Part shown: piece by piece, positions 4,288 through 54,576 of the stretch | Layout of the letters: each line of letters opens with the position of its first letter | Numbering within the stretch: position 1 is the first letter of the stretch | Source: a virus | Strand: one strand, 5' to 3' | Length of the DNA: 60,756 bases | Virus record (IMG/VR): IMGVR_UViG_3300031977_001837 | Span: 1 to 60,756 of that record | Translations under genes and position numbers: made by a program | Notes under the pieces: generated by a model | Database searches by the model: none | Told to the model about the DNA's origin: nothing | The model's input: the letters and a program-made list of their open reading frames with translations, nothing else

Positions 4288-6249
4288 TGGGTTTCTCTCC
4301 GTTGCGATAGAAGGCACAGAATCTATATGATTAATAAAAGATTCTGAAGATTCGGCCATTTTTACCCTTGAAACGCTTTCAATCTTTGCGCCGGAGTAAG
4401 CAGGCTTGTGAACAATAGCAAGATGGTCAAATTGAAAATCGCTTTCAAAGGTCATAATCATTCTGCCATCTTCTGCTTCAACCATATCATCGGGAATGCC
4501 ACTACCACCAATAGATACTCCATACCCTTGTCTTAACCAAAGACCGGATTCAAGAGCCTCAAACAATTCTTTGCGGTGAACTTCTGCTTTGAAGCGAACT
4601 TCCCAAGAGCCTCCAAATTTGTCAACAACAGATGCCTCAGTAACAAATCCAACAACTGCTTCTTCGACTCCGCCATTCATATTACGCTTAAAGCGACCAT
4701 TTTCAGAAGTCGGATGATTTAATGTTAAATCTGCACCAACCATTTGCGCAACTGCTAAATCTGCGCCAGTTCTGGTTATTTCCCAACCATTTTTATTTAC
4801 GCCTTGATGAAATGCAATACCGGATATAGCAATAATATATTCTCCTGTATCTGCTTGTAATACCATATCATCAACAGAAATATCATCAATATCTAATTCA
4901 AATGCTACTTTAACACACATACCATTTTTCTTTTCATATCCGCTTCTGCATTCACCATCTGTATGATAAGATGCTTCTTCTTTGAAATTATGTCCTTCAT
5001 GCGCCTTCATACATTCTTGACTGCTAAAGCCCATTTGTGTGCAACGACTCATAAATTCATCATGAGTTTCATCATTAGAAGGTGCAGGCACAGTATGTTC
5101 GTCTGCTTTTACATCATCACAACTATTACAGCCACAACCACAGCCCATAACTGTATGTGAGTTTTTGGATGATTTATTAAATTCGCTACTTGTATAATCT
5201 GTCACTGACTTGTCTCTTTCCCACATTTTACAAGACCAATATCGGGGAGTAGTCTTATCTTTAGCAGTATCACAAGAATGTCTATCACGGAATGCTTTGC
5301 GTCTTTTTGGGTCATCACGCTTGATTTCCATATTAGGGTCGCCAAACCTTACTATAATGACATTACCTTTTTCATTTTGAACATAAACTGCAAACTTCTT
5401 TTTTTCTTTAGGTGTTCTAAATGGTTTGTTAAGTTTTACTTTGCGACCTTGATATTCTGCGCCTTCAAACTCAACTCCATCCCAATCTTCATAGTCTTCT
5501 CCATCTTCACTTGCTCTGGGGTGAGACTTAGGCAATAAGTCATTGTCTTGCTTGTAATTTGGGTTGCTTGGTCTTCCGTTTCGCAAAAGATAAAGGAAGG
5601 CTTTGACTCTTGCGATTCCCCAACCTGTTCTTGACATGTTTGGTGCATGACTACGGCTAAAAGCACCAGCACCCCTACGAAAGACAGACTTTAACCTACC
5701 CATAGTAGCCTTTGAGCCTTTACCTTTCTTTTCGACTTTTTTGTTATGCTCTTGCATCATTTTGCGCAATCGGGCTTCGGTTTCCTTACTAACTTGAATA
5801 TTTTTGTTAGGTTTTTTAGCAGAACCCGGTTTATTTTTCTTTGACCCTTTTTTGCGCTCACTTGGTTTAGCGGGAGTCTTACGAGGGTCATTTTTACCCG
5901 GCCTTCCATATTGTAGTGCGCTTAATTCTTGTTCAGCATCGGGGTCATTTTTACGATACCATTCGATAAACTCTTTTTCTGTTTTTGCGGGAAAATACAT
6001 AATTGTGCCGTCTGCCATTTTTGACTCATGTATTTCTCCACCAAAACCAATTTCCATAGATTTTTTGCGTGCGCCTTCGGGAGTTGAAAAAATATAGTCT
6101 TCCATTTTTGCTTCAACTCCCTTTTCAAAATAAGAATTGCATACCGCAGCCCTTTGTTGTGGATTACCAAATTCGTCAACCATTTTATTATCTCCCATAC
6201 AACGGGACATAAAGTCATCTTTACTCTCATTAGGTCGAGGGTCGGGCAT
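3763..6249 (-). CDS. Multidomain prohead protease-scaffold polyprotein
   Basis: About 828 residues; ATG at 6249 chosen (a GTG lies 9 nt upstream). Numbering here is from that upstream GTG. Residues 1-50 hold a Cys module (ESKDDFMSRC...AVC) that recurs at about 398-420 (HDEFMSRC...SSQEC). Residues 110-200 are very basic. Residues 215-345 carry a conserved phage segment (RVKAFLYLLRNGRPS; FGDPNMEIKRDDPKRRKAFR; RYWSCKMW), followed by a Cys cluster (CGCGCNSC, 373-380). Residues 450-630 resemble an HK97/U35-type prohead protease with candidate catalytic His515 (LNHP) and Ser582 (YGVSIGG). Residues 655-760 are an acidic Glu/Ala coiled coil like a scaffold. Unusually long: protease-scaffold proteins are normally 300-450 residues. 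Confidence 0.7.
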   Translation of the reverse strand: MPDPRPNESKDDFMSRCMGDNKMVDEFGNPQQRAAVCNSYFEKGVEAKMEDYIFSTPEGARKKSMEIGFGGEIHESKMADGTIMYFPAKTEKEFIEWYRKNDPDAEQELSALQYGRPGKNDPRKTPAKPSERKKGSKKNKPGSAKKPNKNIQVSKETEARLRKMMQEHNKKVEKKGKGSKATMGRLKSVFRRGAGAFSRSHAPNMSRTGWGIARVKAFLYLLRNGRPSNPNYKQDNDLLPKSHPRASEDGEDYEDWDGVEFEGAEYQGRKVKLNKPFRTPKEKKKFAVYVQNEKGNVIIVRFGDPNMEIKRDDPKRRKAFRDRHSCDTAKDKTTPRYWSCKMWERDKSVTDYTSSEFNKSSKNSHTVMGCGCGCNSCDDVKADEHTVPAPSNDETHDEFMSRCTQMGFSSQECMKAHEGHNFKEEASYHTDGECRSGYEKKNGMCVKVAFELDIDDISVDDMVLQADTGEYIIAISGIAFHQGVNKNGWEITRTGADLAVAQMVGADLTLNHPTSENGRFKRNMNGGVEEAVVGFVTEASVVDKFGGSWEVRFKAEVHRKELFEALESGLWLRQGYGVSIGGSGIPDDMVEAEDGRMIMTFESDFQFDHLAIVHKPAYSGAKIESVSRVKMAESSESFINHIDSVPSIATERNPMSEEIIASEISEEEVVETPIAEEIDYSAEIEALKASLAEKESELAEIKASEEAKVEEARLALVEKATKMGIAGVNDLPAETIESIIASFEAKIPTEEVKEMTPVASNVEATERVEKTTEVVANFLNRKRLETPVDIYAKAYNAWAKAWNQTLSASERERMGALTFEQAKEQNKL

Positions 6250-6254
6250 AATAA

Positions 6255-6707
6255 TCACTTAGTTTTTTTAGTATCGCCTTTACACATTTCATGTTCGTGC
6301 GATTGTTGTAAAGTATGGATTTTGTGTTCGTGTTCTTGAGCAAGGCTTTCTAATTTCATTGTATGAGTTTGATGCTGTTGCTCTAATTCTCTTTGATGTT
6401 TTTGTTCAGTTGGTATATTATCAACTTCTTGGGTTTGTTCTGATTCCCACATGCGCAAAACAGTTTGTAGCGCAGGCGCAGCAGTTCCACCAATAATAGC
6501 AATAAGTGCGATAAATCCATCAAGATTCATCAAAACTACATCGGGTTTCCATATACCCATACCAACAACTGCACCACAAGAAAGTAACCAAAGATAAATT
6601 GCAGGCAAAACAGTGCGTTTTACCATTCTATCGTTGAATGACATACTCTTTGAGCGAGAGTTAGCACTACCCATGATTTTTCGACTGTATGTGTGTCTTT
6701 TAATCAT
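6255..6707 (-). CDS. Two-helix membrane protein with His/Glu-rich tail (holin-like?)
   Basis: 150 residues. Basic N-terminus, then two hydrophobic segments (about residues 34-52, VLPAIYLWLLSCGAVVGMG, and 62-80, LDGFIALIAIIGGTAAPAL), followed by a long hydrophilic coiled coil rich in His, Gln and Glu (EQKHQRELEQQHQTH...). Its stop overlaps the start of the protease gene. Two membrane segments plus a charged tail and a place next to the portal would fit a holin or a membrane-associated packaging factor, but this is not diagnostic. An alternative start is the ATG at 6674. Confidence 0.5.
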   Translation of the reverse strand: MIKRHTYSRKIMGSANSRSKSMSFNDRMVKRTVLPAIYLWLLSCGAVVGMGIWKPDVVLMNLDGFIALIAIIGGTAAPALQTVLRMWESEQTQEVDNIPTEQKHQRELEQQHQTHTMKLESLAQEHEHKIHTLQQSHEHEMCKGDTKKTK

Positions 6708-6712
6708 TATTA

Positions 6713-6958
6713 TTAAATTACCATTTGACTACCAGTAATTACTATACTAATAAATCCTATACCTGTTAACATTACTTTTTTAATCAAATCAAAGCCTTCT
6801 TGTAAAACTTTATTCTGAATGCGCAATTCTCCTTCAAGTCCAGCAAGCCTTGCTTCTGCTTTTGATTGCGCTTTTACAATTTGCGCAGAAAGAGTTTTTA
6901 AGTCCTTTACATCTTCTTCAAGACTTTCAACTCTAAACTCTAACACATCGTCAGACAT
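6713..6958 (-). CDS. Small coiled-coil membrane-anchor protein
   Basis: 81 residues from ATG at 6958, which overlaps the portal stop (ATGTGATG). Residues 5-60 are a heptad coiled coil (VESLEEDVKDLKTLSAQIVK...), and the last 20 residues are hydrophobic (VMLTGIGFISIVITG), giving a tail-anchored layout. It is co-transcribed with the portal and the two-helix membrane protein, so the two may act together in the membrane, for example at release. Function not recognised. Confidence 0.5.
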   Translation of the reverse strand: MSDDVLEFRVESLEEDVKDLKTLSAQIVKAQSKAEARLAGLEGELRIQNKVLQEGFDLIKKVMLTGIGFISIVITGSQMVI

Positions 6959-8334
6959 CACATTTCACCTTCTCTCGGCAATTCGCCAGTTGGTGTTCTT
7001 GTTCCGCCTTCTTTTCTGGTATCTGCGCCTTCTTCGACAGGAAGCGCAACAACATCAAGGGCTTGATTTAGCGTTAATACGCCTGCATCATACCCTAATG
7101 TGGCTCGACGCATTTTGTCAAGACGAGTTTCTTCATCAACTGGTTCAAACACAAGGTCAGGTAAGTCAGATTTTACATGGTTAATTTTTAACAAATTTAA
7201 GTGCGCAGAAAATAATTCCATTACAGACTGTCGCAAAATGCTTTGTATGCGTCGAATTGCATTGCTTGCCCATAAGTTTGCAGTATAAGATGCCGCAAAA
7301 GTGCTACCTTTCTCTTGACCGGCTGCTGTGCGTGGCACTTGTAAAACTGCTGCAATGTCTGCATTTACATTGTCAAGGAATGATGTTGTGTCGGGTATTG
7401 CGCTTCTTTGGTCTATATGTTGTATCTTTACATAGTCTGGGAAAATTGGCACTTGGTCGCCACGAAGCGACTCCATTGTGTCAATTACTTGATTCATAAT
7501 GTAAAGCAGTCTATCTCTTTGCTCATCGGGGTTTTGTATGTGCTTTACTGCTTCCATATCAATTGTAATAAATTGTTTTGTCATTGCATCTTCAATAGCA
7601 ATTCTGTTGTTAATACTATTATACTTTGCACGAATGGCTTGCTTTAGTGCTGTAAAACGGGATGAACCCCAAATACCATAAGTTATCCTTGCTTCGTTAT
7701 CTGTGAACCAATTACTTCTGTAATCCATGCGTATGTGCAATATTTCGTCTGATGGAAACTCTTGCATTGTTGTTTCTCCTTCACGCAAAAAATACCTTTG
7801 CGGTTCGATAACAGGGTCATTTTCATCAGCAGTTGCAGTTCTATTTCTATCGTCAAGTATTGTAATTTGACCTATCGGTAAGTTTTGCACATCAGTTATA
7901 CCTTCACGGCTTGTTCCTACAAGTTTATTGACATCATTTCCATAAACCATAAGATTTCTCATAGCATTAATAAGAATATCATCAAAATCTATTTTATCAA
8001 TCATTTCTTGTAAAGCATTTCTAATTCGTGCATTTTTTGCGCTGCGCCAATTGATTGTATAATTGTTAGCAGTTAGCGATACTGCACGCACTGCACCATT
8101 AAGTTCGGGGTCAAGTTTAAGCATTTCGTCAAAAAGATAAAAGTCATTATCAAAGTTAGAGTCATCTCTTAACTGATTTGTTTCATTTACAATATCCGAC
8201 AAACCTGCAATCATAGTGAATGGGCTTCTGTGGCCTACATTATATCGTAAGTCACCTTCAAAGGCCATAACTACTTTTGGTTCCTCATTTTTCGATGGAG
8301 ATTTTTTAGAACCAAAAAAGGGAAATCGTGCCAT
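6958..8334 (-). CDS. Portal protein
   Basis: 458 residues from ATG at 8334. Features typical of portal proteins: N-terminal basic leader (MARFPFFGSKKS), DFYLFDEMLKLDPELNGAVRAVSL, a wing region, the DEILHIRMDYRSNWF segment, a stem-like region (VDTMESLRGDQ, YVKIQHID), and an IAAVLQVPRTAAGQEKGSTFAAS segment near 335-360 matching the 'FGVP...G...' crown/stem motif of siphovirus portals. The C-terminus is acidic and disordered (EEGADTRKEGGTRTP). It forms the dodecameric DNA gate and docks the terminase. First gene of the leftward virion arm after the divergent region. Confidence 0.85.
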   Translation of the reverse strand: MARFPFFGSKKSPSKNEEPKVVMAFEGDLRYNVGHRSPFTMIAGLSDIVNETNQLRDDSNFDNDFYLFDEMLKLDPELNGAVRAVSLTANNYTINWRSAKNARIRNALQEMIDKIDFDDILINAMRNLMVYGNDVNKLVGTSREGITDVQNLPIGQITILDDRNRTATADENDPVIEPQRYFLREGETTMQEFPSDEILHIRMDYRSNWFTDNEARITYGIWGSSRFTALKQAIRAKYNSINNRIAIEDAMTKQFITIDMEAVKHIQNPDEQRDRLLYIMNQVIDTMESLRGDQVPIFPDYVKIQHIDQRSAIPDTTSFLDNVNADIAAVLQVPRTAAGQEKGSTFAASYTANLWASNAIRRIQSILRQSVMELFSAHLNLLKINHVKSDLPDLVFEPVDEETRLDKMRRATLGYDAGVLTLNQALDVVALPVEEGADTRKEGGTRTPTGELPREGEM

Positions 8335-9989: not shown

Positions 9990-10200
9990 CGACAAAGAGT
10001 TGCGATTTGCAGATATGGGCGAAGATTGCGTAGCAGTAAATATGTTTCTTTCAGATGAAGACTTAATACTCGGCGTTATGCTAACAAGAGATGAAATTGA
10101 AAACTTAGTGTATAAGTTAGCAGAATACTGCGGAATCCCGTTTTTTAATAAAGGAGGGATAAATCTAAATGGTTCGCTTAATGACAACCTTTCATCTTGA
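9970..10200 (+). CDS. Small protein between phosphoesterase and terminase
   Basis: 76 residues from ATG at 9970 (GGGAG 8 nt upstream), starting inside the end of the phosphoesterase gene and ending 32 nt inside the terminase gene. The sequence ELRFADMGEDCVAVNMFLSDEDLILGVMLTRDEIENLVYKLAEYCG suggests a small alpha/beta domain. A ribosome binding site for the terminase (AAGGAGGG) lies within its end. Not recognised; a small-terminase role is not supported by any motif. Confidence 0.55.
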   Translation: MPIWMSNDKELRFADMGEDCVAVNMFLSDEDLILGVMLTRDEIENLVYKLAEYCGIPFFNKGGINLNGSLNDNLSS

Positions 10201-11662: not shown

Positions 11663-11754
11663 TTTATAAACGCAATTTGGAAAAAATATGGGTAATTTTT
11701 TGAGGTGGTTGGCGTTGCGTGCGCCGTCAGTGCGCATAGGTTTTGGCGCAAAAA

Positions 11755-12982
11755 AACGCATGACTGCGAGCCTGTTATTACTTTTCAGCGCAATTTTATT
11801 AATTTTGACAAAATCGGTCTTTTCTGAACATTATTGATACTATCTATTCGATGCACTGCAAGCCATTTTGCGCAAATGGAGGTCGTCGGTTGAAAATAGG
11901 CCGTTGTAAAATCGAATGACGGCGAGCCTGTTTTGAGTCATATCTCTGCTGATTTGTTCGATTGTTGGCAAAATTGCGCCGTTTGAAACCGATGGACTGA
12001 GAGCCTACCGTCAAACAATAGGCTTCCAGTGATGCGTTTTTGATAATTCAGTGGTTGATTTTCAAATTGACTTCATTGATTGAAAACCGATAGACTGCGA
12101 CCCTCCCGACTTCCATAATTACCGTATATTTTCATAAATCAGCACCCTTTTTTCTCGATTCCGGTAATTTTTGCGCTGTTATGGTAATTTTACGGAAATG
12201 AGCAAAATGAGCAAAATTGAGTAATATCCACTATTGAAAAACGACGCACTGAAAAATTGACAGTTGAAAAAATCAAAAAAATTGCTCAAAATTTCAGCCT
12301 CGCAGTCTTCATATCTCGCCTTCTTGCATCATCATTTTGCGCCGTGATTTTCAAAACCGTTGCACTGCGTTTTTCAGAGAGACCGAAATCCAAAGTCGAA
12401 ATCCGGTAATTCAAACTCTAAACGATAGACTGAGAAGCCGACAAAATCTCAAACCGTTATACTGCTCTGCATTCGATGGACTGCGAGACCGACGGCCCCT
12501 ATCGGCCTGTTTTTCTCGGACATCATTGGCTTGCAGTGTCCCATTTAGTGAAATCCGGCGAAATTGCCAAAATCGGCGCAATCGGTGACGGAAACCGGAA
12601 AAATGGAAAATTGCTCTTAGTCCTAACAGGCTTGCAGTGTTGCGTTTTCATTTTCTAATCGTGGCACTGAGAGCCTGCTCTGCTCAGAGAATCTCAACAG
12701 GCTTGCAGTCCATCGAATAGCCCGAAATGCGCCGAATTGAGCCGACTCCTAAACGATAGACTGCGAGGCTGTTTTTTCCGGCGCAATTTCAAAACCGTGA
12801 CACTGCGAGGCTGTCAAGATTCTGGAAAAAAACCGTTGCACTGCATCTTGAAAACGATAGACTGAGAGCCTGCTGAAGATGCGCCATTTCGCTGAAACCG
12901 TGATACTGCGAGGCTTATGGCTCTCTATACAACGGTTTTACTCAAAAAAGTGGTGTAAAAAGTAAATCGAGGGACTGCAAGG
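11755..12982. repeat. Non-coding block of about 19 degenerate short repeats (candidate origin or pac region)
   Basis: No credible gene between 11663 and 13085. Instead a degenerate unit of about 20 nt recurs, close to AAACCGT/AACGATA followed by NACTGCGAGSCTG. Clear plus copies begin near 11763, 11855, 11918, 11995, 12093, 12361, 12421, 12454, 12476, 12664, 12752, 12792, 12833, 12853, 12895 and 12971; minus copies (AGGCTTGCAGT form) lie near 12020, 12296, 12538, 12625 and 12696. Spacing is irregular, so this is not a CRISPR. Stray copies occur at 13391-13408 (inside the next gene) and 16277-16297. Location between terminase and early genes fits a replication origin with initiator-binding iterons, a terminase pac site, or a regulator-binding array. 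Confidence 0.75.
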
Positions 12983-12984
12983 AA

Positions 12985-13051
12985 GTTTATATGTAGTTTA
13001 TCCACCCCTGCATCCAATTTTTGCGCCACTTTCAACCGAAATCGGTTATAA
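12985..13051 (+). promoter_or_regulatory. Candidate promoters for the AAA+ ATPase gene
   Basis: Two TATA-like sites: GTTTATAT at 12985-12992 (about 100 nt before the start) and CGGTTATAA at 13043-13051 (about 35 nt before the start). The second lies within a small palindrome (AACCGAAATCGGTT). A GAGGT ribosome site at 13075-13079 precedes the ATG at 13086. Confidence 0.45.
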
Positions 13052-13085
13052 CCTGAAGGAATAAGGAGTAAAGCGAGGTATAGTA

Positions 13086-15188
13086 ATGTTGCAGAACATC
13101 GTAACCAAAATTATGATTGTATTGCTCGCAGTTGGCTTATTTGCGCCAGTTGTAGCAATCGCAATCAATCAGCATGAAGAACGACCGACCCCAGTAATGG
13201 AGACCAGTGAGCCGATGGCAGAACTCCCAGAGTTCAAACCACCAATGAGCAGACATGCGTTTAAGCGAGCAGTTCACCGTTTAGAATTAGCAAGCAAGCG
13301 CAAAAATCTCAAGGGCGCACTTCTTAGAAGGGTGCTAAATGGCACGCAGTCTAACGATTCAACCGAGGAAAATGACACGGTTGAAATCAAAACAGGCTTG
13401 CAGTGTGCCGATTGTGGATGCCTTGAAGAACATGGATATGCAATAGATGAAGAACTAAATCCGGCGCAGTGTGCCGATTGTTACTATTATCCAACCGTTG
13501 AAGAGGTTGAAATTACGACGAGGAAACACGCAAAAAGCCGAGCAGTTGACTGTTTTGCATGTGGGGTTTCAATCCATCAAGGAGAAACTAAGCACATGAT
13601 GAAATACGAAAATATGCACACCAAAAAGGCACACTGCGACCAATGCGCTGATGAAATCATAGGTCTAAAGGCTGATGAAATCATTACCAAACAGGCCCGC
13701 AGTCAATCGTTAAGCGCATTAATTGCGCCGATTTTCCTTGCCCTCGTAGTTTCCATATTTGCGCCTAAACTGGCTTTCAGTGTGCCATTCTTAGCAGTTG
13801 GAAAAATGCACTTGAGCGCAGAATTAGAAGCATGTAAAGCGGAAGGCTACAAAATACGCAGTCATTCAAAGTCAAATCCTGCTAAGTGCATTTCCTGCAA
13901 ATGCGAGATAACCAAAGGTGAATTGAAAGCAATGCTTCCTTACGCCGGATATACTCAAAATAAGGCACATTGCAGAGAATGCGCCCATATTACATGGGTC
14001 AAGATTTCAGCAAATCCAACCCCAAAAGTTGAGCCAAAAACCGACCCCGTTCCAGAGCCAAAACCGGAACCGGCAACCCAACCAAATGAGCCGACTGCGC
14101 CAAAGGTCGCAGAGAAAATTAAGACACAAATCAAAGGAGATAAGGGGTCTCAATTGGTTGAATTAATTGCTCAATTGGGTGGAGTTGATGAAGCGGAAGT
14201 CCGTCGAATTGTCAATGAGGAAACGGCGCAAATTCAAGAGAAGTTTGCCGACCAAATCAACGACCAGTTAAGCAAAATCAGCAAGCCGACACTTCTTGAA
14301 ATCAAGCCTATGAAGGGCGAGAAAATCAAGATTGAAGGAGTCCAACACCACAAGATGACTCAATTGCTGTTCTATATCATGAAGACACGCAATGAGAATA
14401 ATCTGTATCTATGGGGTGACGCCGGAACCGGAAAAACTCGCATTTGTGTGGATTTATTCGGACTATTGAAAGCCGGTGGATGGTTCAAGGAAATGGGCTT
14501 GAAGAAGGCCACAGTTGAGAAGAATGTGTTCATTCTCAGTTGTAACAAAGACATCCAATCTCAAGAGTTGTTAGGCCGTGAAAGTCCGAGATTCTTTGAT
14601 GATGGAAGCGGAAGGCCTGCCGGCGAATGGGACTTCATTCTCGGCGCACTATTGCCCGTTTTCCGTGATGGTGGAATAATTTGTCTTGATGAGATTGACC
14701 GTCTTCATGAATCAACTTTGAGCGCATTGAATGCAATCTTAGCGAATGGGTTCGTATATACTCCAAAAGGCGAGAAAATTGTGCGCCATCCGGCTTGCGT
14801 TATTGTTGGCACTGCTAACACAAAGGGCAACGGTGGAAGCGGAAAATACTCGGCCACAAGACAGCAAGACGGCGCAACTCTTGACCGTTTCACAGGTCGG
14901 AAAATCCACATTGATTATGACCCTGCAATTGAAGATTCAATCGCCGGAAGTGCTGAACTGGCGCAAAAGTTCAGAGACATGAGAAACGCATTTGAGGCAC
15001 ATGGACTTGATGAAGCAATTATCTCATACCGTTCTATAATCGTTGCACGCAATGACATTGAAGCCGGTATATCTCAAGAATATGCGCTGTATAATATCGC
15101 TTCCCAATGGGGAGAGGAAAACGCATTCAAGGCCGGATTTACCGAAGTCCCTACCTTTGACTTTTCAAGTGCGTGGGGTGGCGCATAA
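13086..15188 (+). CDS. Membrane-anchored zinc-finger CobS/MoxR-like AAA+ ATPase
   Basis: 700 residues. N-terminal membrane segment (about 5-27). Zinc modules with CxxC pairs: C107/C110 with C129/C132, C156/C159 with C184/C187. A second membrane segment lies at about 208-238, then a third zinc module C268/C271 with C296/C299. A Pro/Glu/Lys linker (about 310-340) is followed by a short coiled region. The AAA+ domain has Walker A GDAGTGKT (444-451), Walker B IICLDEID (530-537), sensor-1 GTANT (575-579) and an R-finger-like LDRF, as in CobS/MoxR proteins, which remodel protein complexes with a VWA partner. The adjacent gene may be that partner. Soluble viral CobS-like ATPases are usually 300-400 residues, so the zinc and membrane parts are extra. 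Confidence 0.8.
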   Translation: MLQNIVTKIMIVLLAVGLFAPVVAIAINQHEERPTPVMETSEPMAELPEFKPPMSRHAFKRAVHRLELASKRKNLKGALLRRVLNGTQSNDSTEENDTVEIKTGLQCADCGCLEEHGYAIDEELNPAQCADCYYYPTVEEVEITTRKHAKSRAVDCFACGVSIHQGETKHMMKYENMHTKKAHCDQCADEIIGLKADEIITKQARSQSLSALIAPIFLALVVSIFAPKLAFSVPFLAVGKMHLSAELEACKAEGYKIRSHSKSNPAKCISCKCEITKGELKAMLPYAGYTQNKAHCRECAHITWVKISANPTPKVEPKTDPVPEPKPEPATQPNEPTAPKVAEKIKTQIKGDKGSQLVELIAQLGGVDEAEVRRIVNEETAQIQEKFADQINDQLSKISKPTLLEIKPMKGEKIKIEGVQHHKMTQLLFYIMKTRNENNLYLWGDAGTGKTRICVDLFGLLKAGGWFKEMGLKKATVEKNVFILSCNKDIQSQELLGRESPRFFDDGSGRPAGEWDFILGALLPVFRDGGIICLDEIDRLHESTLSALNAILANGFVYTPKGEKIVRHPACVIVGTANTKGNGGSGKYSATRQQDGATLDRFTGRKIHIDYDPAIEDSIAGSAELAQKFRDMRNAFEAHGLDEAIISYRSIIVARNDIEAGISQEYALYNIASQWGEENAFKAGFTEVPTFDFSSAWGGA

Positions 15189-15256
15189 TCGGGACACTGC
15201 GCTAATGAAACAGTTTGAAAATATGCGCAAATTCTGAAATAAAACGAGGTGAAAAA

Positions 15257-16273
15257 ATGTTCAATCCAATCTATGAATATGTCTGGAACGCAGACACAGA
15301 AACTATGGAGAAGGGCAAGAAAGTTGAGGTCTTCCCTAACAAAGTAATGCTTGAGGAAAATCGCAACCCAAAACCGATGAACGGCGTTCAATTCCTTGAG
15401 GTTGAAGGGTGGTCTAAGTTCAACTTCTTTGAAAGCCCACTTCACTTGAACAAATTTTTGCGCAATGAGGTGATTAAGAAGAACCCTCAGAACGGTGAAA
15501 AGAAGATACGCCACGCTGAATGGTTAGGTGTCCCAAAGGAATTGAGAAAGACCTGCGGAACATATCAAGACCTATACGACCAGTTGATTGTTCACCCATC
15601 AAAAGCACCAGAAAAAATCAAGCAGGCTGTTGTTAATGCACTGCCTAATGCAATACGCAATATTTTGGTTGAATCCGAGCGATGGAGTGACATCAAAGGC
15701 GATTTGAACCTTGATAGAATCTTTGCAGGAAAGCGCAAATTTATGAGAGAACAAATCATTCAAAACGAGCCTACCAAAGTTATTGGTATCGGCGTTCAAA
15801 TGAATGCACTGAGCCACATTAACGCAGAGGTTTTGAGCATTAGGGGAGTCGTTGCCAGTATTGCGGTTGAGTGCCTTGAAAAATTAGGCCACTCGGTTGA
15901 ACTGTTTGGATATACTCATTCAAGTGGGACTTACGGAAACGGCGCAAGCACCAATACATTTGTCTGCAAAATCAAGAAGGCAGGCGAGAAAATGGCGACC
16001 AGTGCGCTGATGAACCTAACCTCTTCATGGTGTTTTAGAACTGCGGTTTTCGCAGTCAATAACCACGCAAGCAGGAACAGCAGAAAAGCAGAGGCAAGAG
16101 GTCAAGGCGGTTCATTGAAGATGAACGACACAAGCGCAAAATACCTTGAGCAACTCATACCGTCAATCACCAATTTCGCTATACTGCGCTATGTCCCAGA
16201 GTCTAACGGCTTCATCGGCGAGATTGAAAAGGCAGTGGATGCGCTTCTTGATGTTCTTGAGCCATACATTTGA
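15257..16273 (+). CDS. Probable VWA-like partner of the CobS/MoxR ATPase
   Basis: 338 residues from ATG at 15257, preceded by GAGGTG. An in-frame ATG at 15215 lacks a ribosome site. Residues 170-240 (VIGIGVQMNALSHINAEVLSIRGV..., CLEKLGHSVELFGYTHSSGTYGNG) follow the pattern of the von Willebrand A-like/DUF7192-type proteins that pair with CobS-like ATPases in phages and haloviruses. The classical DxSxS metal site is not seen and is replaced by IGVQMNA, so it would be a degenerate VWA fold. No membrane segment. Directly downstream of the AAA+ gene, supporting a two-component machine. Resemblance is by eye. Confidence 0.5.
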   Translation: MFNPIYEYVWNADTETMEKGKKVEVFPNKVMLEENRNPKPMNGVQFLEVEGWSKFNFFESPLHLNKFLRNEVIKKNPQNGEKKIRHAEWLGVPKELRKTCGTYQDLYDQLIVHPSKAPEKIKQAVVNALPNAIRNILVESERWSDIKGDLNLDRIFAGKRKFMREQIIQNEPTKVIGIGVQMNALSHINAEVLSIRGVVASIAVECLEKLGHSVELFGYTHSSGTYGNGASTNTFVCKIKKAGEKMATSALMNLTSSWCFRTAVFAVNNHASRNSRKAEARGQGGSLKMNDTSAKYLEQLIPSITNFAILRYVPESNGFIGEIEKAVDALLDVLEPYI

Positions 16274-19091: not shown

Positions 19092-19424
19092 ATGGCTACA
19101 CTAAGAACATTTGGCGAAGGACTTTTTATTGACGCATTTGGCGAGCGGTATAAGGTTTTGAAAGGTTGGGAATCAATGACCGGATGGTATTGGTTCGCAA
19201 CAGAATTAAACGACGACGGGGTTCATTTTGGATTCGTTCAAGGATTTGAAGAAGAGTTCGGTTACTTCAGCGAAGAAGAATTGAAATCAAGTCCTATGGT
19301 GTGGGAAATCAAGAAGATAGACCTACCCTACGCAGGGCGCAGAGACAGACCACAAGAGAGATTAGGTAACGACCCCTTCAAGAAGCACTTCAGAAGGCAC
19401 AGCAAAAAGGGGGCATCACAATGA
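19092..19424 (+). CDS. DUF2958-like protein
   Basis: 110 residues, ATG 19092 preceded by AAGGAGG. The central stretch GWYWFATELNDDGVHFGFVQ followed by GFEEEFGYFSEEEL matches the signature of DUF2958, small proteins of phages and plasmids with the pattern 'W-W-ATE-D...FG-V-G-E-E-GYFS--EL'. The C-terminal 25 residues are basic. The biochemical role of DUF2958 is unknown; these genes are usually in accessory clusters. Confidence 0.6.
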   Translation: MATLRTFGEGLFIDAFGERYKVLKGWESMTGWYWFATELNDDGVHFGFVQGFEEEFGYFSEEELKSSPMVWEIKKIDLPYAGRRDRPQERLGNDPFKKHFRRHSKKGASQ

Positions 19425-19852
19425 GCGCAGACTTCTTGAGGAATGTTAGAGAAATCCCTGCGGATTATGAGCCGGTCAAGGTTCTATCCCTTGCAGGTGA
19501 AGACTCCGTAGGAGTTCTATGCAAGAGGCCCGACGGTGGCATTTCTGATATACTGGTTCGCTTGAAAGGCAAAGCCTGCGCAGGCGTATGCCCTGCGTGT
19601 GGCAGAGATATGAAAGAGATTCAAACCGGAACTTTGGTTTGCTCTGTGAATCACATTCTGGTTGTTATGACTAATGCGCAAGCAACCTCAGTTACATTAT
19701 CCCCTTCTTCTAAGAAGAAGGTGCGCATCCTAAACAACAAGAGAAGCGCAGTTATTCCACCATCTAAGAAAACAACAATCAAAGAAAAGCACGACGCAGA
19801 CATTGCTGAAATTGTGCGCAGTGCTATGCAGAGCAGGGGGGTGAACCAATGA
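19421..19852 (+). CDS. Zinc-ribbon protein, unknown
   Basis: 143 residues, ATGA overlap at its start. First half is a beta-rich domain ending in a zinc site (CAGVCPACGRD with a later Cys, about 53-75), then a basic Ser/Lys/Thr-rich linker and a short helix (HDADIAEIVRSAMQSRG). Likely a nucleic-acid-associated regulator (inference). Confidence 0.5.
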   Translation: MSADFLRNVREIPADYEPVKVLSLAGEDSVGVLCKRPDGGISDILVRLKGKACAGVCPACGRDMKEIQTGTLVCSVNHILVVMTNAQATSVTLSPSSKKKVRILNNKRSAVIPPSKKTTIKEKHDADIAEIVRSAMQSRGVNQ

Positions 19853-43810: not shown

Positions 43811-46800
43811 TCAATATGGTCTCATGCTTAGGCTTTGCGCATTACCTGCATTGCTGTATCTTCTCATTTTAACAGACAAAGAATGGAATGTTATAGAGTC
43901 ATAACCCGAATTATCGTTGCCCTGTGCCGGCTTTCTCTCTATATTTACTTTCAAAGTGTTACCCGATACATTTGCGCCGTTAATAGTGTTAGGACTAAAG
44001 ATAGTCACTTGCTGTCTTGAAGAACTACCATTTATCAAAACGGTTTCCGATTTAGAGTCTCCTGTTTCAGAACAAGAAACGGTAGTTGTTATTTCACAAA
44101 TGTCTGATGATGACTCACCAAATGAAACTTGCGCAATCACACTAACGAATGAACCTGCGCTCACATCATTAGGCACACGGACATTTACAGAGTTGCTATG
44201 ACTTTCTCCCTGCGCACCCGCTTCTGGGTCTGTTATTCCGGCAAGCGCAAAGCCATCGTTTGTAAGAATGCTTGCGCCTTCGCTCGACATGATAGAAGAT
44301 TCAATCCCGTCAATATCTCTGTCGGCAGAAAGCGCAGTTGCCGGTCTGTTTTGACCGATAATGCCAAAGTCGCCAGTTGCCAAACCAACATCTGCTTTGA
44401 AGTCTGCTTTGCCCTTTAGACCTCTGAATGCGCCAACAGAAAGCATGTTATTAGAGAGACCGGCAAAGAAGGAAGATGCGTCACCTCCGCCAGTAATGCC
44501 AGTTGAAGGCAAGAATGGTTGCGCACTTACCCCTCCCCCTCCGCCAACCGGCGGTCTTGGGAAACTTGGGGGTAACGGTGGAACCGGAGATTGTGGTCTT
44601 GGAGGCGAGTTTGGAGAACCGCCGTCTGCGATAGTTTTGAACATACTCGCCAAACCATAACCGAAGTGCTTATCTGTCCTCTGCAAATCTAACTGAACAG
44701 TATCAACATCTCTTGAGTTCTTATTCCAATTTATGCCGTTGATAGTTAGAGTCTCCGAAGTTAAATCAATATGAGTATCTGTAAATGATATTGTGGTTGC
44801 AGGCTGATAGACCAAATCATCAACTATACACAATCTTGGCGCATAGTAAAGACCTCTTGTGTTGTGCGCTTTTGCGCCGGAAAATCCATCTAAACAATAA
44901 CCTAACGGGAATGCGCTGTATTCGTTTGTAGTGGAAAAGGAGTGTCCGAATACACTAACAGAGTTACTAAGTGTATCGTGTGCCGTTCCACTTTCTAACT
45001 CTTCATCCATTCTGCGCAAAAGACCTAATAGGTAATCATAATCAACTGAAAAGGTAATGTATTTATCTGTTGATGAATAAGTGTCTGGGGTTTTGACTCT
45101 GTATAATCCGTTTCCGTCAACTACAATAGAATTGTAATTACTTGCAGAGTAAGAGCCTGCGTCATATTCTGGTGGCAGATTGTTAATAGTATCTTCGACT
45201 TCATCAAAAGGTATGTCAAATAAATGCAGTCTAAATGTAGCAGTATCGTCAACCGGAGAAGTAGCCTGTCCTGTTGAAGCAGAACCTTCAATAGTTATGC
45301 AAAGTCTAATTTCTTGATTTGTGCCTTCGCTTAGTTTCGGTGTATTTTTATCAACATACATTACCTTTAGCGCACTTGTAAGACTTCTTGTTGCGTATTG
45401 AGGGTGGCCTCTGTATCTCGGTAGCCCATACGCATAATGAATGTCAACCGTAGCAGTGGGAACACTAAATCCAGTCTCACAAAATATGCTTATAGAGCCT
45501 CCGTCGGTCACATCGGTAAGGGTTTGCCATCCAGTAGTCAATGTGGTAACTGCGCCATAAACACCATTTCCTGTTGAATCATATCTTGCAGTTCCAGTTC
45601 CGCTTAAAAGGTCTATTACTCCTACTGCGCTTTGCGCAACCCCATCTGCTCTTTTAACAAGTATGCCGTTATTGGCAAGAGTATCATCTTGTGGTATTGC
45701 GTAAAGACCTGCGCCAGTCGTTGAGCCGTTAGTGCTTTGGATAGTAAAGTCTGCGTCAGTAGCAGAAGCATGTCTAAATCGAGTATTATTGCTGTCTCTA
45801 TAATCTTCTATACCCTTGTTAGCAAATCCTCCCCATATGCTACTCCATGAAGCGTTAGTCTTTCTATTATAATCATACAGCCTTACTACTGAATCTTGAA
45901 CATAGCCGTATCTGCCACCAGTAAGCATTTTGCTCTGTTCGTTTGCGCCCAACAAAACTTCTGCGCTAATAGCGACATTGCTATCCTTTTCACGCAAATA
46001 TTCTTGTTTTGCGAGAGCAAGTGCTTCATCTCTATTGAATATGTTTGGGTATTGTAAAGTGCGCCACCTTGTTATTGCGTTTTCCGTTGGTTCTGGGAAA
46101 TCGGCAAAGTTACTATTACCGTTGTAATAAACACGAACATTTGTTATTTGCGAACCTAACTTTGTAGTCATATTACTTTGTAGCAAGTTTGTTCTATCAA
46201 AACTTAGACCCGAAGGTATTCTTTGTCTAATTGTAAAAATATTATCTCTATCCATAAGCCATGAAAAAGTAGTTTGATGCGTGCCTCCGCTACCATCCTT
46301 TTCAGTAATATTCTTTGCTATGTTCATCATTGACATATTTCTTCCATCAAACATAGAACCAAAATCATCTTCATTAGAATCGTTGACTTCTTTTAACATG
46401 TGTCTTGTTTTTGGCATATAGAAAGAGCAAGGCATGTTTGTGTTTGTGGCCCATGTGTCTCCAAACGCAAGAGAAAACATACTGCGCATTTTATCATGCG
46501 AGTAATATGTTCCAATATTTTTACTTTTTACTAATCCTTCAATATTTACAGAAAGACGCAACGGGAATATAGCCGAAGGAGTATTATAGACCAAAACAGT
46601 TTGGAATACACCGTCGGGATTGGTTTCGGTTTTGCGCACAATATTTGCTCTCGATGAAGGAGTTTGCCCATTTCCAGTAATGTTTGACCTTTCAGCAGTT
46701 AGTAATGTGTTTATTGTGTTTATATCAACTATTGATTCTGGGTCAAAAGAAGTAATATAGACTCCTGTTAGTTTATCTCCTAATGTTGCGTCTGTTCCCT

Positions 46801-49800
46801 TTCCAGTCCATGAATAGTAATAAATTAAATCTTCTTGAGAACGACCTTCGCCAGTTTGACAAATAATTGCGCCAGTTCCGCTTGTATCAAATAAAGAATT
46901 ATCATCAACATAAATAGTAGTATCTAAAAGCGAAACATCTTGTGTTAAAATTGTTTTGTCATTTAGCATATACAAAGCGTTTGGATGATTGTCTATACCG
47001 GCAAAGGTATCAATGTTTTTGTAAGAGGAAATTGATGCTTTATAGTAAGCGTCTGTTAAATAAGGGAAACCTTGAATCGCAAGAACATAATCGCCAAAGT
47101 CAACAAGACCACCACTTGAATACCCGCTTCTGCCACCAGTAGCCATTGTATTAAGATTATAAAATCGAGATGCGTCAACTACTAAGAATGAACCTCCTTT
47201 GTTTTCCCAATTGTGGTATCTATCATCTAATTGTTCGTAGTTACTACAACCATCAAGGCTACTCCATGCGCTACCTGTAAATGGTTCTGTGTTTGCGTCA
47301 AACTGCCATAAGTCAACATCTTCGCCTATTTTTAATTCCGTAAATATGTCTGGGTTGCCGTTTTGGTCGAATTGGTCTGCTATTGAAACATTTACTTTGT
47401 AGTTTTTCGATGTAGGTAAAATGATACCAAAATCAGAAACTCTTTCCCCGCCATCAGCATTTGCTGTTCCGTCGTTGCGCATATCAGCCCAAAGAACATA
47501 ACAGTGTTTGTAACCATTACTTTCATTTATTTTGCGCAAAGTGTAAATTGTTTTAGAAGGGTCAAATGTCTTTTTTATTCCTTTTACTCCTGTAATGTCA
47601 ATGCTACCTTTTCTAAAAGTTGCGCCGGTTTGCGATAATGGCTTAAACGCAGAAGAAGAATTAGTAAAATCAACATCAACCCTATTTACCTTTATTGCAT
47701 CTGGGTCATTAAAGTAGTGCGCAGAACCTAAAGTCCACTGAGAGTTTCCTTGATATTGGTTTTTTACATAAGCAAACTCATCAATCATAGGCTCATAGAA
47801 TATTTTTTGCGCAGAATAAACATTGTGCGCAGTTGATGGATTGTTTGAAACTACTTGAAAAACTCCATTTAAGTCAGACTCCTTAAACCCTTCATGTATT
47901 ACAATGTCACCATTTCTAACTGTTGCGCTACCAGTGATTGTAAATAATTCCGTTGTTTTGTCATAATCAACTGTATCTGAAACTGATGGGTCGGTAACAC
48001 CATTGGCTATTACATATTGGCAATCGTTTGTTTCAGTATCTAACAACTCAAGAACAATTCCTGTATCTTCCATGTTATACTTCTTAATGTAATACCATAG
48101 ACCACATTCGTCAAACCGTAAAGTAGTTTGCGTCGAATCAATTTGATTTGAACCGGCTAAAGCATGGTAAGAAGTATCTAATCCTTCCCAACCTATACAT
48201 GTTCCATCTGAATTATATCCTGTTAAACTGGATGGGTGCGCTGTTGCCATATTTGGAGAAATAATATGATTTAGCGCAGAACCTTGACCTGCTCTCCAAT
48301 AAGGAATTGCTTCTATTATACCAAATTGCGCTCTAAAGAAAGGAGACTGAACTAAGTCACGCATCCATCTTGCATGTATTGTTCTATGCTTGACTCTTTC
48401 CATTACTGCGTTTGTTGTTGGGTGAGTTTCATAAATAATTGGTTTTGATTTTGGTATGCGCATTTCTGTTGCGTTTGGATTTGCGTTAAAAATTGAAGTT
48501 TTGGTAATGTAAGTTGAGTCTGCAAGAGTTGATGCGCTTTTTTGGGTTTCAGAAGCACCTAAAATATCATATGGCGCAAGAACTTGAAACTCTGTGTTAT
48601 TTATTGCTGATATAACTTGTAAAGGAACAGAAGCATAATATGTTCTATTATCTGTTGTATCATAGAATCCATCCGGCATAATTATCCAATCGCCCACTTC
48701 TAAACTATGAGTATCTGATGATGCTAATTCTATTTTCATAGACATTGGATTTTCACCGGCACTATTCCATGCGGGAGAAAAAGAACCGTCGTCTGTTAAT
48801 TGAGTAGCGTAAGGAGTTTCCGGTTGAGTATATCCTCTGTATAGTGTATCTATTCTAAATAATTCATCACCTGCAACAGCAGACCATGTAGTAGTTGTAA
48901 TAATTTTAACTGTATAGTCTTCTTCATTTACATTTATGTAATCAGTAGTAGCACTGCCATTTGGTCTGCTCATTCTTCTTTGAACAACTATACTATCAAT
49001 AGTATAAGTTGTGTCATATCCCTGCGAGCCTTCTAAAGTAATTGTATCGCTTGCTGATAATCCATTGTATGAACTAATAGTAACTGTGTTATCAGACGCA
49101 GAAGCCCATGTTGGCTCTGTGTATTTGTCTTTATCGAATTTCAAAAATATTGTAAAGTTACCAGTTGACTGTTCTTTACCTATTGCATAAACTTCATGCA
49201 GACCCCAACTGGTGTTATTCATGCCTTCCCAAAACTTTTCAACATTACTTGGCCCATATTCATCTTCATTTACATACATTTGAATGGTTTGCCCATTATA
49301 CAAATGTGTTCTTGCGTCATTATCTTTTGTGTGCAAGTTTCCACTTTCGTCTTCATTCCAATAATTAAATCCTAAACTATTATTTCCTATTGTTAAATAG
49401 TGCGCACCAAACAACATAGTGTTTAGCAATTCATTTGTGTCATACTGTCTTTTACTATTTGTTGAATCCATTGATATATGTTGATTCAAACTAAAATGCG
49501 CATTTTGTCCTGTTTCCCAAATAGGCAACACTCTATCTAAAATAAATGATGAATCTTGCGCAGTTATTCTGGTTGAAAGTGTTAAGTTTTTACTATCTTG
49601 ATTATGTTGAATAGACTCAAGAAATCCATACCAAATAGGTCTTTCTTCATAATTTCCAATAAATGAAATTAGTCTCCATTCAGAAGCAGAAGAACCAGTA
49701 GTTAAAGCAGACAAACTATATTCATTTAAGTCGTCAAGAATTTCAACAGCCATACTTGAAGTTTTATCTGCGCCACTTGAATAAGTCATGCTTTTTACTG

Positions 49801-51091
49801 GTGGCGGATATGTGCCTCCTAAACGCCAATTCAAAGGAAAACAAACTGCAACTCTGTCAATTAAAGTATCAAGAACTACACAATTTTCTGTTCCATTTGA
49901 AGTCCAAATAGCATCAAGACTCCATCCTTTTGCAGTAGTAAATGTAATTGCGCCATTTATTGCGCCACTATCAAATGCAACTGTGTCGTCATTTGCGTAT
50001 GCTTCCCATGTTAAAGCATCAAAATCAAAATAAACAAATATATCAGCCCACACTAAATTTGCGTCATAATTATTTTCCGTTGCGCCATCCCATTTATCTA
50101 ATACACCTACTAAACCTAAATTAGCAAGTGTTATATCAATAGAAGCAAGAACTCCTGTTGAACTAAAATCATCTGCTGTTGTGTCATATACCGCAGAAGT
50201 GTCATAGCCAATTTTTAATACATATTTATCTAATTGCCAGTCTCCAATTTGATGCGCAGAAATGCGCAAATGAAACATTTCTCCTATGCCTCTAAATCTT
50301 AAATTACCATCATATGTTAGTAATCTTGTTGTTCCGGTTGAGTTAGCATCATTGTATAAACTGTTAACCATAAAGTTTGTTCCCGAAGGTGATTTAACTT
50401 CAAATAAATATTTTTCCGGTCTTGTTAATGTTTTATCATAAGAACTTTGAGGTCTTTCACCAGTATAAACTCCTGTAAAAAAATTATGTTTAATTTCTGT
50501 TTCAAGATTTTCTGTAATCATTCTGCCGTAACTTCCTAAGTATAGGTTTTGTGTGCCTAAATCTGTTTGTGAAGACAATATTCTATCTCCGCCTAAAGTT
50601 GGGTCTATGTCTCCTGTTGGCGCATAATAATTTCCAAATGAATCAAAACTATTTGTAAATCTTAAATATCCTTCTGTTCCACTTCCACCCCATTTGTGTC
50701 TGTTTGCGCAAAAACTTGTTGGTATAGATAAAAATGATTGGTATTCGGGATATGAACCATCAGTATTTCCAATATCAACAGTTATCCATTCGTGAATACC
50801 ACGATTCACTGTAAGTTTATTATTATCTGTTGTAAAATAATCGTGATTTTCAGCAGTAATTAAAGGGTCTGTTGAAGCATGACTAAGTGAGCGCACCCTA
50901 TCAATGTATGAATAATAAAATTTTGGATTGAGATGATTGTAACCACCTAAAACGCTACCAAAATGTGTAATTGTATGGTCTGATGTTCTTGCGCTACCAC
51001 TATTTTTATCATCTGCTACCGCAATAGGCATATGAAAATCATCATAGTAACCTGTTAGCCAATATGTCTGTTCTAAATTAATTGATTTCAT
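43811..51091 (-). CDS. Very large tail hub / tip and receptor-binding protein
   Basis: 2426 residues, starting by an ATGA overlap with the tape measure gene. Ser/Thr/Asn/Asp/Tyr-rich and nearly all beta. The part around 430-520 (SSMAVEILDDLNEYSLSALTTGS; EWRLISFIGNYEERPIWYGFLESIQ) resembles the baseplate-hub/distal-tail lines of long-tailed phages. It is followed by many beta modules with LamG- and Ig-like character. A Pro-rich hinge (about 2155-2185, repeated PP and RPP) and Gly run lead to a C-terminal beta domain (VRVPNDVSAGSFVSVIAQVSFG...), possibly the host-binding tip. Likely the tail-tip organiser after the tape measure. The last virion gene before the convergent terminator. Confidence 0.65.
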   Translation of the reverse strand: MKSINLEQTYWLTGYYDDFHMPIAVADDKNSGSARTSDHTITHFGSVLGGYNHLNPKFYYSYIDRVRSLSHASTDPLITAENHDYFTTDNNKLTVNRGIHEWITVDIGNTDGSYPEYQSFLSIPTSFCANRHKWGGSGTEGYLRFTNSFDSFGNYYAPTGDIDPTLGGDRILSSQTDLGTQNLYLGSYGRMITENLETEIKHNFFTGVYTGERPQSSYDKTLTRPEKYLFEVKSPSGTNFMVNSLYNDANSTGTTRLLTYDGNLRFRGIGEMFHLRISAHQIGDWQLDKYVLKIGYDTSAVYDTTADDFSSTGVLASIDITLANLGLVGVLDKWDGATENNYDANLVWADIFVYFDFDALTWEAYANDDTVAFDSGAINGAITFTTAKGWSLDAIWTSNGTENCVVLDTLIDRVAVCFPLNWRLGGTYPPPVKSMTYSSGADKTSSMAVEILDDLNEYSLSALTTGSSASEWRLISFIGNYEERPIWYGFLESIQHNQDSKNLTLSTRITAQDSSFILDRVLPIWETGQNAHFSLNQHISMDSTNSKRQYDTNELLNTMLFGAHYLTIGNNSLGFNYWNEDESGNLHTKDNDARTHLYNGQTIQMYVNEDEYGPSNVEKFWEGMNNTSWGLHEVYAIGKEQSTGNFTIFLKFDKDKYTEPTWASASDNTVTISSYNGLSASDTITLEGSQGYDTTYTIDSIVVQRRMSRPNGSATTDYINVNEEDYTVKIITTTTWSAVAGDELFRIDTLYRGYTQPETPYATQLTDDGSFSPAWNSAGENPMSMKIELASSDTHSLEVGDWIIMPDGFYDTTDNRTYYASVPLQVISAINNTEFQVLAPYDILGASETQKSASTLADSTYITKTSIFNANPNATEMRIPKSKPIIYETHPTTNAVMERVKHRTIHARWMRDLVQSPFFRAQFGIIEAIPYWRAGQGSALNHIISPNMATAHPSSLTGYNSDGTCIGWEGLDTSYHALAGSNQIDSTQTTLRFDECGLWYYIKKYNMEDTGIVLELLDTETNDCQYVIANGVTDPSVSDTVDYDKTTELFTITGSATVRNGDIVIHEGFKESDLNGVFQVVSNNPSTAHNVYSAQKIFYEPMIDEFAYVKNQYQGNSQWTLGSAHYFNDPDAIKVNRVDVDFTNSSSAFKPLSQTGATFRKGSIDITGVKGIKKTFDPSKTIYTLRKINESNGYKHCYVLWADMRNDGTANADGGERVSDFGIILPTSKNYKVNVSIADQFDQNGNPDIFTELKIGEDVDLWQFDANTEPFTGSAWSSLDGCSNYEQLDDRYHNWENKGGSFLVVDASRFYNLNTMATGGRSGYSSGGLVDFGDYVLAIQGFPYLTDAYYKASISSYKNIDTFAGIDNHPNALYMLNDKTILTQDVSLLDTTIYVDDNSLFDTSGTGAIICQTGEGRSQEDLIYYYSWTGKGTDATLGDKLTGVYITSFDPESIVDINTINTLLTAERSNITGNGQTPSSRANIVRKTETNPDGVFQTVLVYNTPSAIFPLRLSVNIEGLVKSKNIGTYYSHDKMRSMFSLAFGDTWATNTNMPCSFYMPKTRHMLKEVNDSNEDDFGSMFDGRNMSMMNIAKNITEKDGSGGTHQTTFSWLMDRDNIFTIRQRIPSGLSFDRTNLLQSNMTTKLGSQITNVRVYYNGNSNFADFPEPTENAITRWRTLQYPNIFNRDEALALAKQEYLREKDSNVAISAEVLLGANEQSKMLTGGRYGYVQDSVVRLYDYNRKTNASWSSIWGGFANKGIEDYRDSNNTRFRHASATDADFTIQSTNGSTTGAGLYAIPQDDTLANNGILVKRADGVAQSAVGVIDLLSGTGTARYDSTGNGVYGAVTTLTTGWQTLTDVTDGGSISIFCETGFSVPTATVDIHYAYGLPRYRGHPQYATRSLTSALKVMYVDKNTPKLSEGTNQEIRLCITIEGSASTGQATSPVDDTATFRLHLFDIPFDEVEDTINNLPPEYDAGSYSASNYNSIVVDGNGLYRVKTPDTYSSTDKYITFSVDYDYLLGLLRRMDEELESGTAHDTLSNSVSVFGHSFSTTNEYSAFPLGYCLDGFSGAKAHNTRGLYYAPRLCIVDDLVYQPATTISFTDTHIDLTSETLTINGINWNKNSRDVDTVQLDLQRTDKHFGYGLASMFKTIADGGSPNSPPRPQSPVPPLPPSFPRPPVGGGGGVSAQPFLPSTGITGGGDASSFFAGLSNNMLSVGAFRGLKGKADFKADVGLATGDFGIIGQNRPATALSADRDIDGIESSIMSSEGASILTNDGFALAGITDPEAGAQGESHSNSVNVRVPNDVSAGSFVSVIAQVSFGESSSDICEITTTVSCSETGDSKSETVLINGSSSRQQVTIFSPNTINGANVSGNTLKVNIERKPAQGNDNSGYDSITFHSLSVKMRRYSNAGNAQSLSMRPY

Positions 51092-54000: not shown

Positions 54001-54576
54001 AATTGTATTACCACGAACAACATTTGCTTGTTGTTCTGCGCTAAGAGCATCATATTGCGCTTTAGTTAAATTACCCATCATAAAGCCAGTCTGTTGCGCT
54101 AACTGAATAAGACGGTTCATACCCATTTCAGTTTCCATTTCACCAACGGCAGCCATTAATAGACCGCCTCTTGTGGCTTCAATAATTGCTTCTTGCGATT
54201 CAAGAACTTGTTTTAACTGCGCAGTTTTTGCGCTTGCCTTTAATGCTTCTGCACCACTAAATGCAAACCCTTCACCCAGAGCAATAGAAGATTGCGCAAA
54301 TCTTTCTGCTTCTCCCGCCATTCCACCGTAAAACTTACGGACACGAATCATTTGCGATTCAAACTCAAAAAATGATTCTGTAATTTCTCCTACGGAATCA
54401 AGAATCTGACTTGCCATATCATCAAAGTTTTCCGCTATGCTGTTTGCAGCATCAGCCATAATTGCCTGCTGCGCAGTTGCAGCCGACTGTGTATCTGAAA
54501 TTAGTCTATTGGCTTGAAAAGTTCCAACAATGTCGAAAAAGACTCTTGCTGCACCTGCCCTTGCCACACTACTCAC
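51088..54576 (-). CDS. Tail tape measure protein
   Basis: 1162 residues; GTG start at 54576 overlaps the chaperone stop by 8 nt. The TP901-type core is visible: EFESQMIRVRKFYGG near 75, SSIALGEGFAFSGAEALKASAKTAQ, and RAGTGLRMIYQRIGN near 255. Long helices follow (e.g. QQEILSERGKFNART, EEELQKTVQLNNAEMHSLRIKQ), then a hydrophobic section (about 790-870, MMIVPFLVDSEKQMAVMMGG...; AAVSGGMSLVAAGAAML). Length would set a tail of roughly 170 nm by the usual 1.5 angstrom per residue (inference). Assembles with the G/GT chaperones just upstream. Confidence 0.88.
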   Translation of the reverse strand: MSSVARAGAARVFFDIVGTFQANRLISDTQSAATAQQAIMADAANSIAENFDDMASQILDSVGEITESFFEFESQMIRVRKFYGGMAGEAERFAQSSIALGEGFAFSGAEALKASAKTAQLKQVLESQEAIIEATRGGLLMAAVGEMETEMGMNRLIQLAQQTGFMMGNLTKAQYDALSAEQQANVVRGNTIRVLDQLNTVENSSVATMEDITFVLNQFSSQANIAGESIGEMAAMSALLLETGEEVSRAGTGLRMIYQRIGNANTDAVKVLQELMGGVEASVVTQMKLSDIIREIAPAYATMTAEQKRNLAVAIAGSRHYVKFLKIMENQERLVELQSAAHAGAYDAIGEYTKRAESNVFQMQQLQAITENVRVEIGENLAQAYIDANIHAYNFLNVIKSFTETDFGLNAMTNIINLAGLYQNFIAPFANVGFQVFNMIIGFKTLGAVQRAMSADAVNTRNRYIELTAQLKLQAAAAGELSVSNNYLVSNMKYQSFYANELKTSLSAYNMTTGAVKQLDQEMRIHSETIKIMTRQQEILSERGKFNARTHSITGEKIRYSTAALTDAVYAHAFANIELNKFQQLQNRASMAIDLYSNRIAKMPVLISNYNNLMAGGLPTLMKHVQAQREILTTRQQEHAILNSHIAILQPLTVAEEEELQKTVQLNNAEMHSLRIKQGLLRSDMLRAQIAGVNTLEMEEQIAVLDQEIQALQQKNNTLEQGLVASRQQRAANEASAVSAQKSSLSFRQQTVALMQTTGASLKAGLSMQRLQSSMMPLMMIVPFLVDSEKQMAVMMGGMLAMGVMRAVMAFQAKNIAMTKTVVLQAAVSGGMSLVAAGAAMLAATLLVDAFIGDKFLSSPLDNLNDFNDGLVTAESNLAGIMSDTDAILSGVVDKSFGEISNSVSEMDNGITAISQHIDELTAMRSGTTKDSALYNQLTSDIEAAEKAQHNLEGLRDARLNLSKIDEALAGKGFDAGVKMTSEEEYFFKKQKRGSLGYEIVGEGFNALKTGEKFFVEYTNLQGEFIEESYDTYNDAENRRAELIQRYNEQGLNAQQDYLSALLNNEKEAQEQSINLLTESNEQAMGEMFNFANAREELFFGQRQNFTGALYKQVSQGGIENLLHKTEIIQTNVFNGMTLPEMVSKVSDGVVSELKSRGVPIA

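Follow-up and report, generated by a model that had tools for sequence, protein, structure and literature searches.

Machines that pair a MoxR-class AAA+ ATPase with a VWA protein are known in soluble form, as rings whose substrates are other proteins and in some cases membrane complexes. The FtsH-type layout consists of a transmembrane segment, an outside domain, a second transmembrane segment and a cytoplasmic AAA+ domain. In the maturation of nitric oxide reductase, a small AAA+ ring, NorQ, and its VWA partner NorD together act on a membrane protein (PMC13036017). A finger-like part of the VWA domain is inserted into the pore of the ring, and hydrolysis of ATP has been proposed to twist NorD (PMC13036017, PMC9976466). 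Mutants in the NorD MIDAS keep NorQ binding, but the target is not matured (PMC9976466). In tailed viruses cobST genes are reported widely, and hijacking of the host CobN for cobalamin synthesis has been proposed for the haloarchaeal Druskaviridae and Saparoviridae (PMC8651126). HVTV-1, a tailed archaeal virus that also encodes RFC, a Hef nuclease and PolB, has an AAA_5 ATPase near a VWA protein, encoded by genes 59 (CobS) and 57 (CobT), respectively.

The locus described here lies in IMG/VR virus record IMGVR_UViG_3300031977_001837, analysed over its whole stretch of 60,756 bases, hereafter the window. Its left arm carries the portal gene on the minus strand (6958-8334, leftward) and, rightward on the plus strand, a metallophosphoesterase gene (starting at 8763) and terL (starting at 10169). 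A non-coding gap of 1.4 kb (11663-13085) separates terL from the ATPase/DUF7192 pair, which is followed by many small genes and then by the replication genes, all on the plus strand: an RFC-like clamp loader (32764), DNA polymerase B (38186), a PD-(D/E)XK nuclease (40763) and an ERCC4/HHH protein (42925). Leftward genes come next, among them the one for the tail tube protein (55462, minus strand), near which two very large ORFs of 2426 and 1162 aa are located on the same strand (43811-51091 and 51088-54576). Rfam and tRNA scans of the window gave no matches. The best matches of PolB and RFC were to haloarchaeal tailed viruses, and HVTV-1 has a similar replication gene set. Judging from PolB, RFC and the ERCC4/HHH protein, the tailed virus of the window is probably one of archaea, and an archaeal virus had been proposed from the sequence alone; an archaeal host is likely rather than proven.

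The first gene of the pair (13086-15188, plus strand) is preceded by a ribosome-binding-site-like GAGG, read from the sequence (13075-13078), and encodes 700 aa. The protein matched phrog_249 (CobS-like; E 8.5e-35), a family annotated as 'porphyrin biosynthesis' / CobS, and Pfam AAA_5 over residues 440-591 (E 1.4e-13). Motifs, model and fold search delimit an AAA+ core at about residues 416-660 (14331-15065), with Walker A at 444-451 (G444, K450, T451), Walker B at 530-536 (D535, E536), the sensor-1 N578, R601 and R649. Across 47 sequences both Walker motifs, the sensor-1 Asn and Arg601 were invariant and Arg649 was kept in at least 90%; Walker A and B, sensor 1 and the Arg finger are all intact, as in the MoxR/CbbQ-NorQ group. 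The top 21 PDB hits of the structural model were all CbbQ or NorQ chains, the nearest being CbbQ 6l1q and the NorQ of NorQ-NorD complexes, with TM-scores by target mostly of 0.7-0.78; pLDDT was mostly over 90 in the core, 77-84 in the first hydrophobic segment (TM1) and about 30 in the zinc region before the second (TM2). This ORF is an intact MoxR-class (CbbQ/NorQ-like) ATPase of phrog_249 with complete motifs, and the sequence-only reading of it as a CobS/MoxR AAA+ protein was correct. An IMG/VR search with the single ATPase sequence retrieved as close relative only contig L002, in which both proteins are identical to those of the window; more distant relatives needed profiles.

The second ORF (15257-16273, plus strand, 338 aa) starts 68 bases past the stop codon of the ATPase gene. 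Its start is most likely the ATG at 15257, placed behind a ribosome-binding-site-like GAGGTG read from the sequence (15246-15251), rather than a TTG at 15215. Profile matches assign it to DUF7192 (PF23822; E 7.2e-13) and phrog_1909, and no literature on DUF7192 was found. In a Pfam scan no VWA model matched the partner or any of 67 DUF7192 members, a PDB sequence search with the partner profile gave no match, and tblastn in phages with the partner alone gave none. By hhalign, nothing was obtained against single HVTV-1 and cyanophage VWA sequences, and the single phiK7B1 VWA produced a weak match over the MIDAS strand (E 0.002, probability 13%). The structural model (mean pLDDT 81) pointed to a VWA-like C-terminal domain at about residues 171-338 (15767-16270, plus strand), with pLDDT mostly above 84 from residue 171. 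In Foldseek searches VWA proteins made up most of the hits: the VWA domain of NorD was the best PDB hit (E 2e-3, probability 0.92), the MIDAS domains of Rea1 and MDN1 were within the top six, and among viral structures DUF7192 proteins came first (E down to 1e-12), followed by CobT/VWA proteins (E 9e-7 to 8e-4). However, the TM-scores against VWA proteins were low (0.2-0.3), with large rmsd, and given these scores a VWA-like fold is likely but not settled. To this extent the earlier reading of a MoxR-type ATPase with a VWA-like partner is supported.

At the position aligned with the VWA D-x-S-x-S (residues 181-185, 15797-15811, plus strand), the partner reads Q-M-N-A-L. The MIDAS signature had seemed to be missing and it is (Q-x-N-x-L), whereas the VWA protein of HVTV-1, at 743 aa, has an intact DRSSS. 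Yet this is not a peculiarity of the virus, because the loss is nearly family-wide: a strict DxSxS was present in only one of the 67 DUF7192 members, in which the first residue was N (25/67) or D (12/67), the next position most often G, S or T, and the last S (34/67). The counterpart in another virus, L098, has P-x-Q-x-N. From the sequences, the pattern reads as decay from an ancestor with MIDAS.

The two genes form a cassette that is common in phages, and in the window both profiles match and the genes are adjacent. Of 65 environmental loci in which the sequence extended far enough past phrog_249 (a few near-duplicates included), 61 carried DUF7192 immediately behind it; in the remaining four it was 0.7-0.9 kb further downstream (three) or just upstream (one). 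Staphylococcus phage Stab23 (g047c-g046c) and Mycobacterium phage Silverleaf (123-122) also encode the ATPase and then a DUF7192 protein, with the gene order of the window, a partner of the same Pfam family and AAA+ cores about 24-28% identical to that of the window. Mycobacterium phage ATPases have one CxxC..HxC element and N-termini otherwise unlike the one described here. Judged from sequence, the soluble phrog_249 and DUF7192 pair occurs widely among phages. In the mycobacteriophages L008-L013 and in L088 each genome has two DUF7192 genes, one beside the AAA+ gene and the other about 1-3 kb on. The DUF7192 protein of contig L027 (4962-5690) has the complete DxSxS (DFSFS) and so offers a connection between this family and VWA domains that bear a MIDAS. 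The pair as such is not unique; what is special is the membrane and zinc N-terminus of the ATPase, which, by its sequence distribution, marks one virus clade.

This N-terminus contains, ahead of the AAA+ core and all on the plus strand, two putative membrane segments and three CxxC...CxxC modules, in agreement with the original description. TM1 (residues 9-27, 13110-13166; mean Kyte-Doolittle 2.95) falls in a helix at 2-31 of the model and is followed by a basic helix at residues 52-87 (13239-13346; 56-84 in the model) with the core motif RHxxKRAVxR. The six CxxC pairs, at residues 107, 129, 156, 184, 268 and 296, make up module 1 (107-132, 13404-13481), module 2 (156-187, 13551-13646) and module 3 (268-299, 13887-13982), the last two resembling each other (37% identity over 38 residues). 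TM2 (208-226, 13707-13763; mean Kyte-Doolittle 2.42) stands just ahead of module 3, and a Pro/Lys-rich linker joins this module to the core. When 72 environmental homologues were screened for any 19-residue stretch above 1.8 Kyte-Doolittle, a membrane segment was detected in one (L016) and the other 71 lacked it; profile searches added two further members with the same kind of N-terminus, L098 and L112. The four ATPases are 42-55% identical and have in common TM1, an acidic stretch, the basic helix, a CxxC module, TM2, a second CxxC module and the AAA+ core; the four Cys of module 3 are invariant in the window, L016 and L098 and are also found in L112. Since both hydrophobic segments, and a CxxC module before as well as after TM2, are retained in these three diverged viruses, the comparison of sequences indicates a genuine architecture and not a chance reading, and codon-position conservation in TM1 (2 > 1 > 3) fits protein-level constraint.

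In a tree of the four proteins beside 47 other rows, rooted with CobS sequences whose branches were long, the membrane members formed one clade (support 100/99). The metallophosphoesterase and terL genes precede the ATPase gene in the three relatives too, and DUF7192 follows it in L098 and L112, while the L016 sequence stops within the ATPase gene. Two scans of 84,980 bacterial and archaeal genomes returned no relatives of the clade and therefore no provirus or host was identified. Within the clade the ATPases (42-55% identity) are more divergent than terL (83-95%). Rapid divergence of the pair could have pointed to a conflict with the host, but this idea was dropped, as another early gene (19421-19852 in the window; counterpart at 13830 in L098) appeared by eye to be comparably diverged. 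The L098 terL (5144-6490) misses about 48 residues, including the Walker B-like ALDDIIDD, relative to the other three, either by a real deletion or by an assembly fault. Copies of a degenerate repeat, approximately CTAAACGATAGACTGCGAGCCTGTT, are scattered over both strands of the gap between terL and the ATPase gene; in the window the 8-base core of this repeat is present 16 times in the 1.4 kb gap, where 0.5 would be expected, and 36 times in the remaining 59 kb. In all four viruses the gap is rich in repeats (11663-13085 in the window, 2629-3956 in L016, 6491-8000 in L098 and 4675-6000 in L112), and they could be an origin, a packaging site or a regulator array.

Concerning topology, we infer from sequence that TM1 and TM2 cross the membrane and that the CxxC modules bind zinc. 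Flanking charges (positive, negative; window, L016, L098 and L112, in this order) were 1,0 for the N-tail before TM1 in all four proteins; 3,6, 2,7, 1,7 and 0,5 for the 30 residues after TM1; 3,4, 0,3, 1,5 and 1,4 for the 20 residues before TM2; and 5,3, 8,2, 7,1 and 7,2 for the 25 residues starting 12 past the TM2 segment. In the four proteins these values favour a topology with the N-terminus in, the loop out and the AAA+ core in, and agree with the earlier prediction that the first zinc module or modules would lie across the membrane from the ATPase. The sole feature against it is the basic helix, which placed outside fits poorly with the positive-inside rule. That helix, strongly basic, and the Cys-rich modules would suit the cytoplasm, as expected if the ATPase were membrane-bound with all its zinc modules inside, TM1 serving as anchor and TM2 with the next hydrophobic stretch forming a re-entrant hairpin. 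In all four proteins TM2 is followed by a break with Pro and then by another, weaker hydrophobic stretch, which in the window reaches about residue 240 (model helices 209-225 and 227-241). But this stretch is short and less hydrophobic, and in all four the charges flanking TM1 and TM2 agree with two complete passages through the membrane, so we regard the hairpin as rather unlikely. The N-tail is short, with one Lys, a hydrophobic core and then an acidic, Ser/Thr/Pro-rich stretch, and TM1 could be taken for a cleaved signal peptide leaving a single-pass mature ATPase with the zinc domain outside; the four sequences share no conserved cleavage-like motif, and we give this option a low probability. 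It is very improbable that the hydrophobic stretches are the buried core of a soluble zinc domain: homologues without them are probably soluble and the Cys-rich region is poorly modelled, but the stretches average 2.0-2.95 in hydropathy over 19 residues in four diverged proteins, are nearly charge-free and are helical in the model.

With two full crossings, the ATPase would consist of TM1, an extracytoplasmic segment with the basic helix and one or two zinc modules, TM2, a zinc module, the linker and a cytoplasmic AAA+ ring. For the pair, a NorQ-NorD mode of action with the ring bound to the membrane is most likely, in which the DUF7192 protein would dock on the ring and pass on its ATP-driven motion. 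As the NorD MIDAS is needed for the target and not for NorQ binding, a partner without MIDAS could still dock and move; and because this target-binding site is lost, recruitment would probably fall to the membrane and zinc part of the ATPase instead of the partner. By analogy, the pair probably uses ATP to remodel a membrane protein or a complex associated with the membrane, which may belong to host or virus. The roles suggested earlier, in defence evasion, envelope remodelling or egress, are conjectural. We infer complex formation, topology, zinc binding and the membrane target, and hold as somewhat probable the overall reading of a MoxR-class motor integral in the membrane that, with a VWA-like co-chaperone, remodels such a target. 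The fuller scheme, in which a NorQ-like ring evolved an FtsH-like layout and a zinc domain outside the cytoplasm, binding of the target shifted from the partner MIDAS to the membrane and zinc module, and an archaeal virus remodels a membrane complex, is more tentative. A widespread phage pair annotated as 'porphyrin biosynthesis' and 'unknown' could thus be read as a motor of the NorQ kind together with a VWA-like protein in which the MIDAS is mostly gone, which makes its function testable, and the membrane-built version would be one way to aim such a ring.

With respect to known systems, the phrog_249 annotation and the wide occurrence of cobST in tailed viruses (PMC8651126) would suit a viral CobS-CobT pair hijacking host CobN for cobalamin synthesis. 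We consider this extremely unlikely here, and on sequence grounds a cobaltochelatase function unlikely: the ATPase is only weakly similar to the HVTV-1 CobS (E 0.09), which belongs to a different branch and in the tree falls among the CobS outgroups, and membrane helices have no known role in the chelatase reaction. A CobST identity was rejected, as the partner has neither a CobT_C match nor a MIDAS. These findings argue against a simple vitamin B12 role for the branch of the window. Membership in FtsH was likewise rejected, since a Pfam search detected neither peptidase M41 nor any other peptidase domain in the ATPase. Among solved structures, NorQ-NorD comes nearest to the partner and, together with CbbQ, to the ATPase. 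Yet NorQ is soluble and NorD has a MIDAS and a large N-terminal domain, whereas in the window the MIDAS is lost and the membrane part is on the ATPase. The predicted layout of the latter resembles that of FtsH and differs from it in the MoxR-class AAA+ core, the zinc modules and the VWA-like partner.
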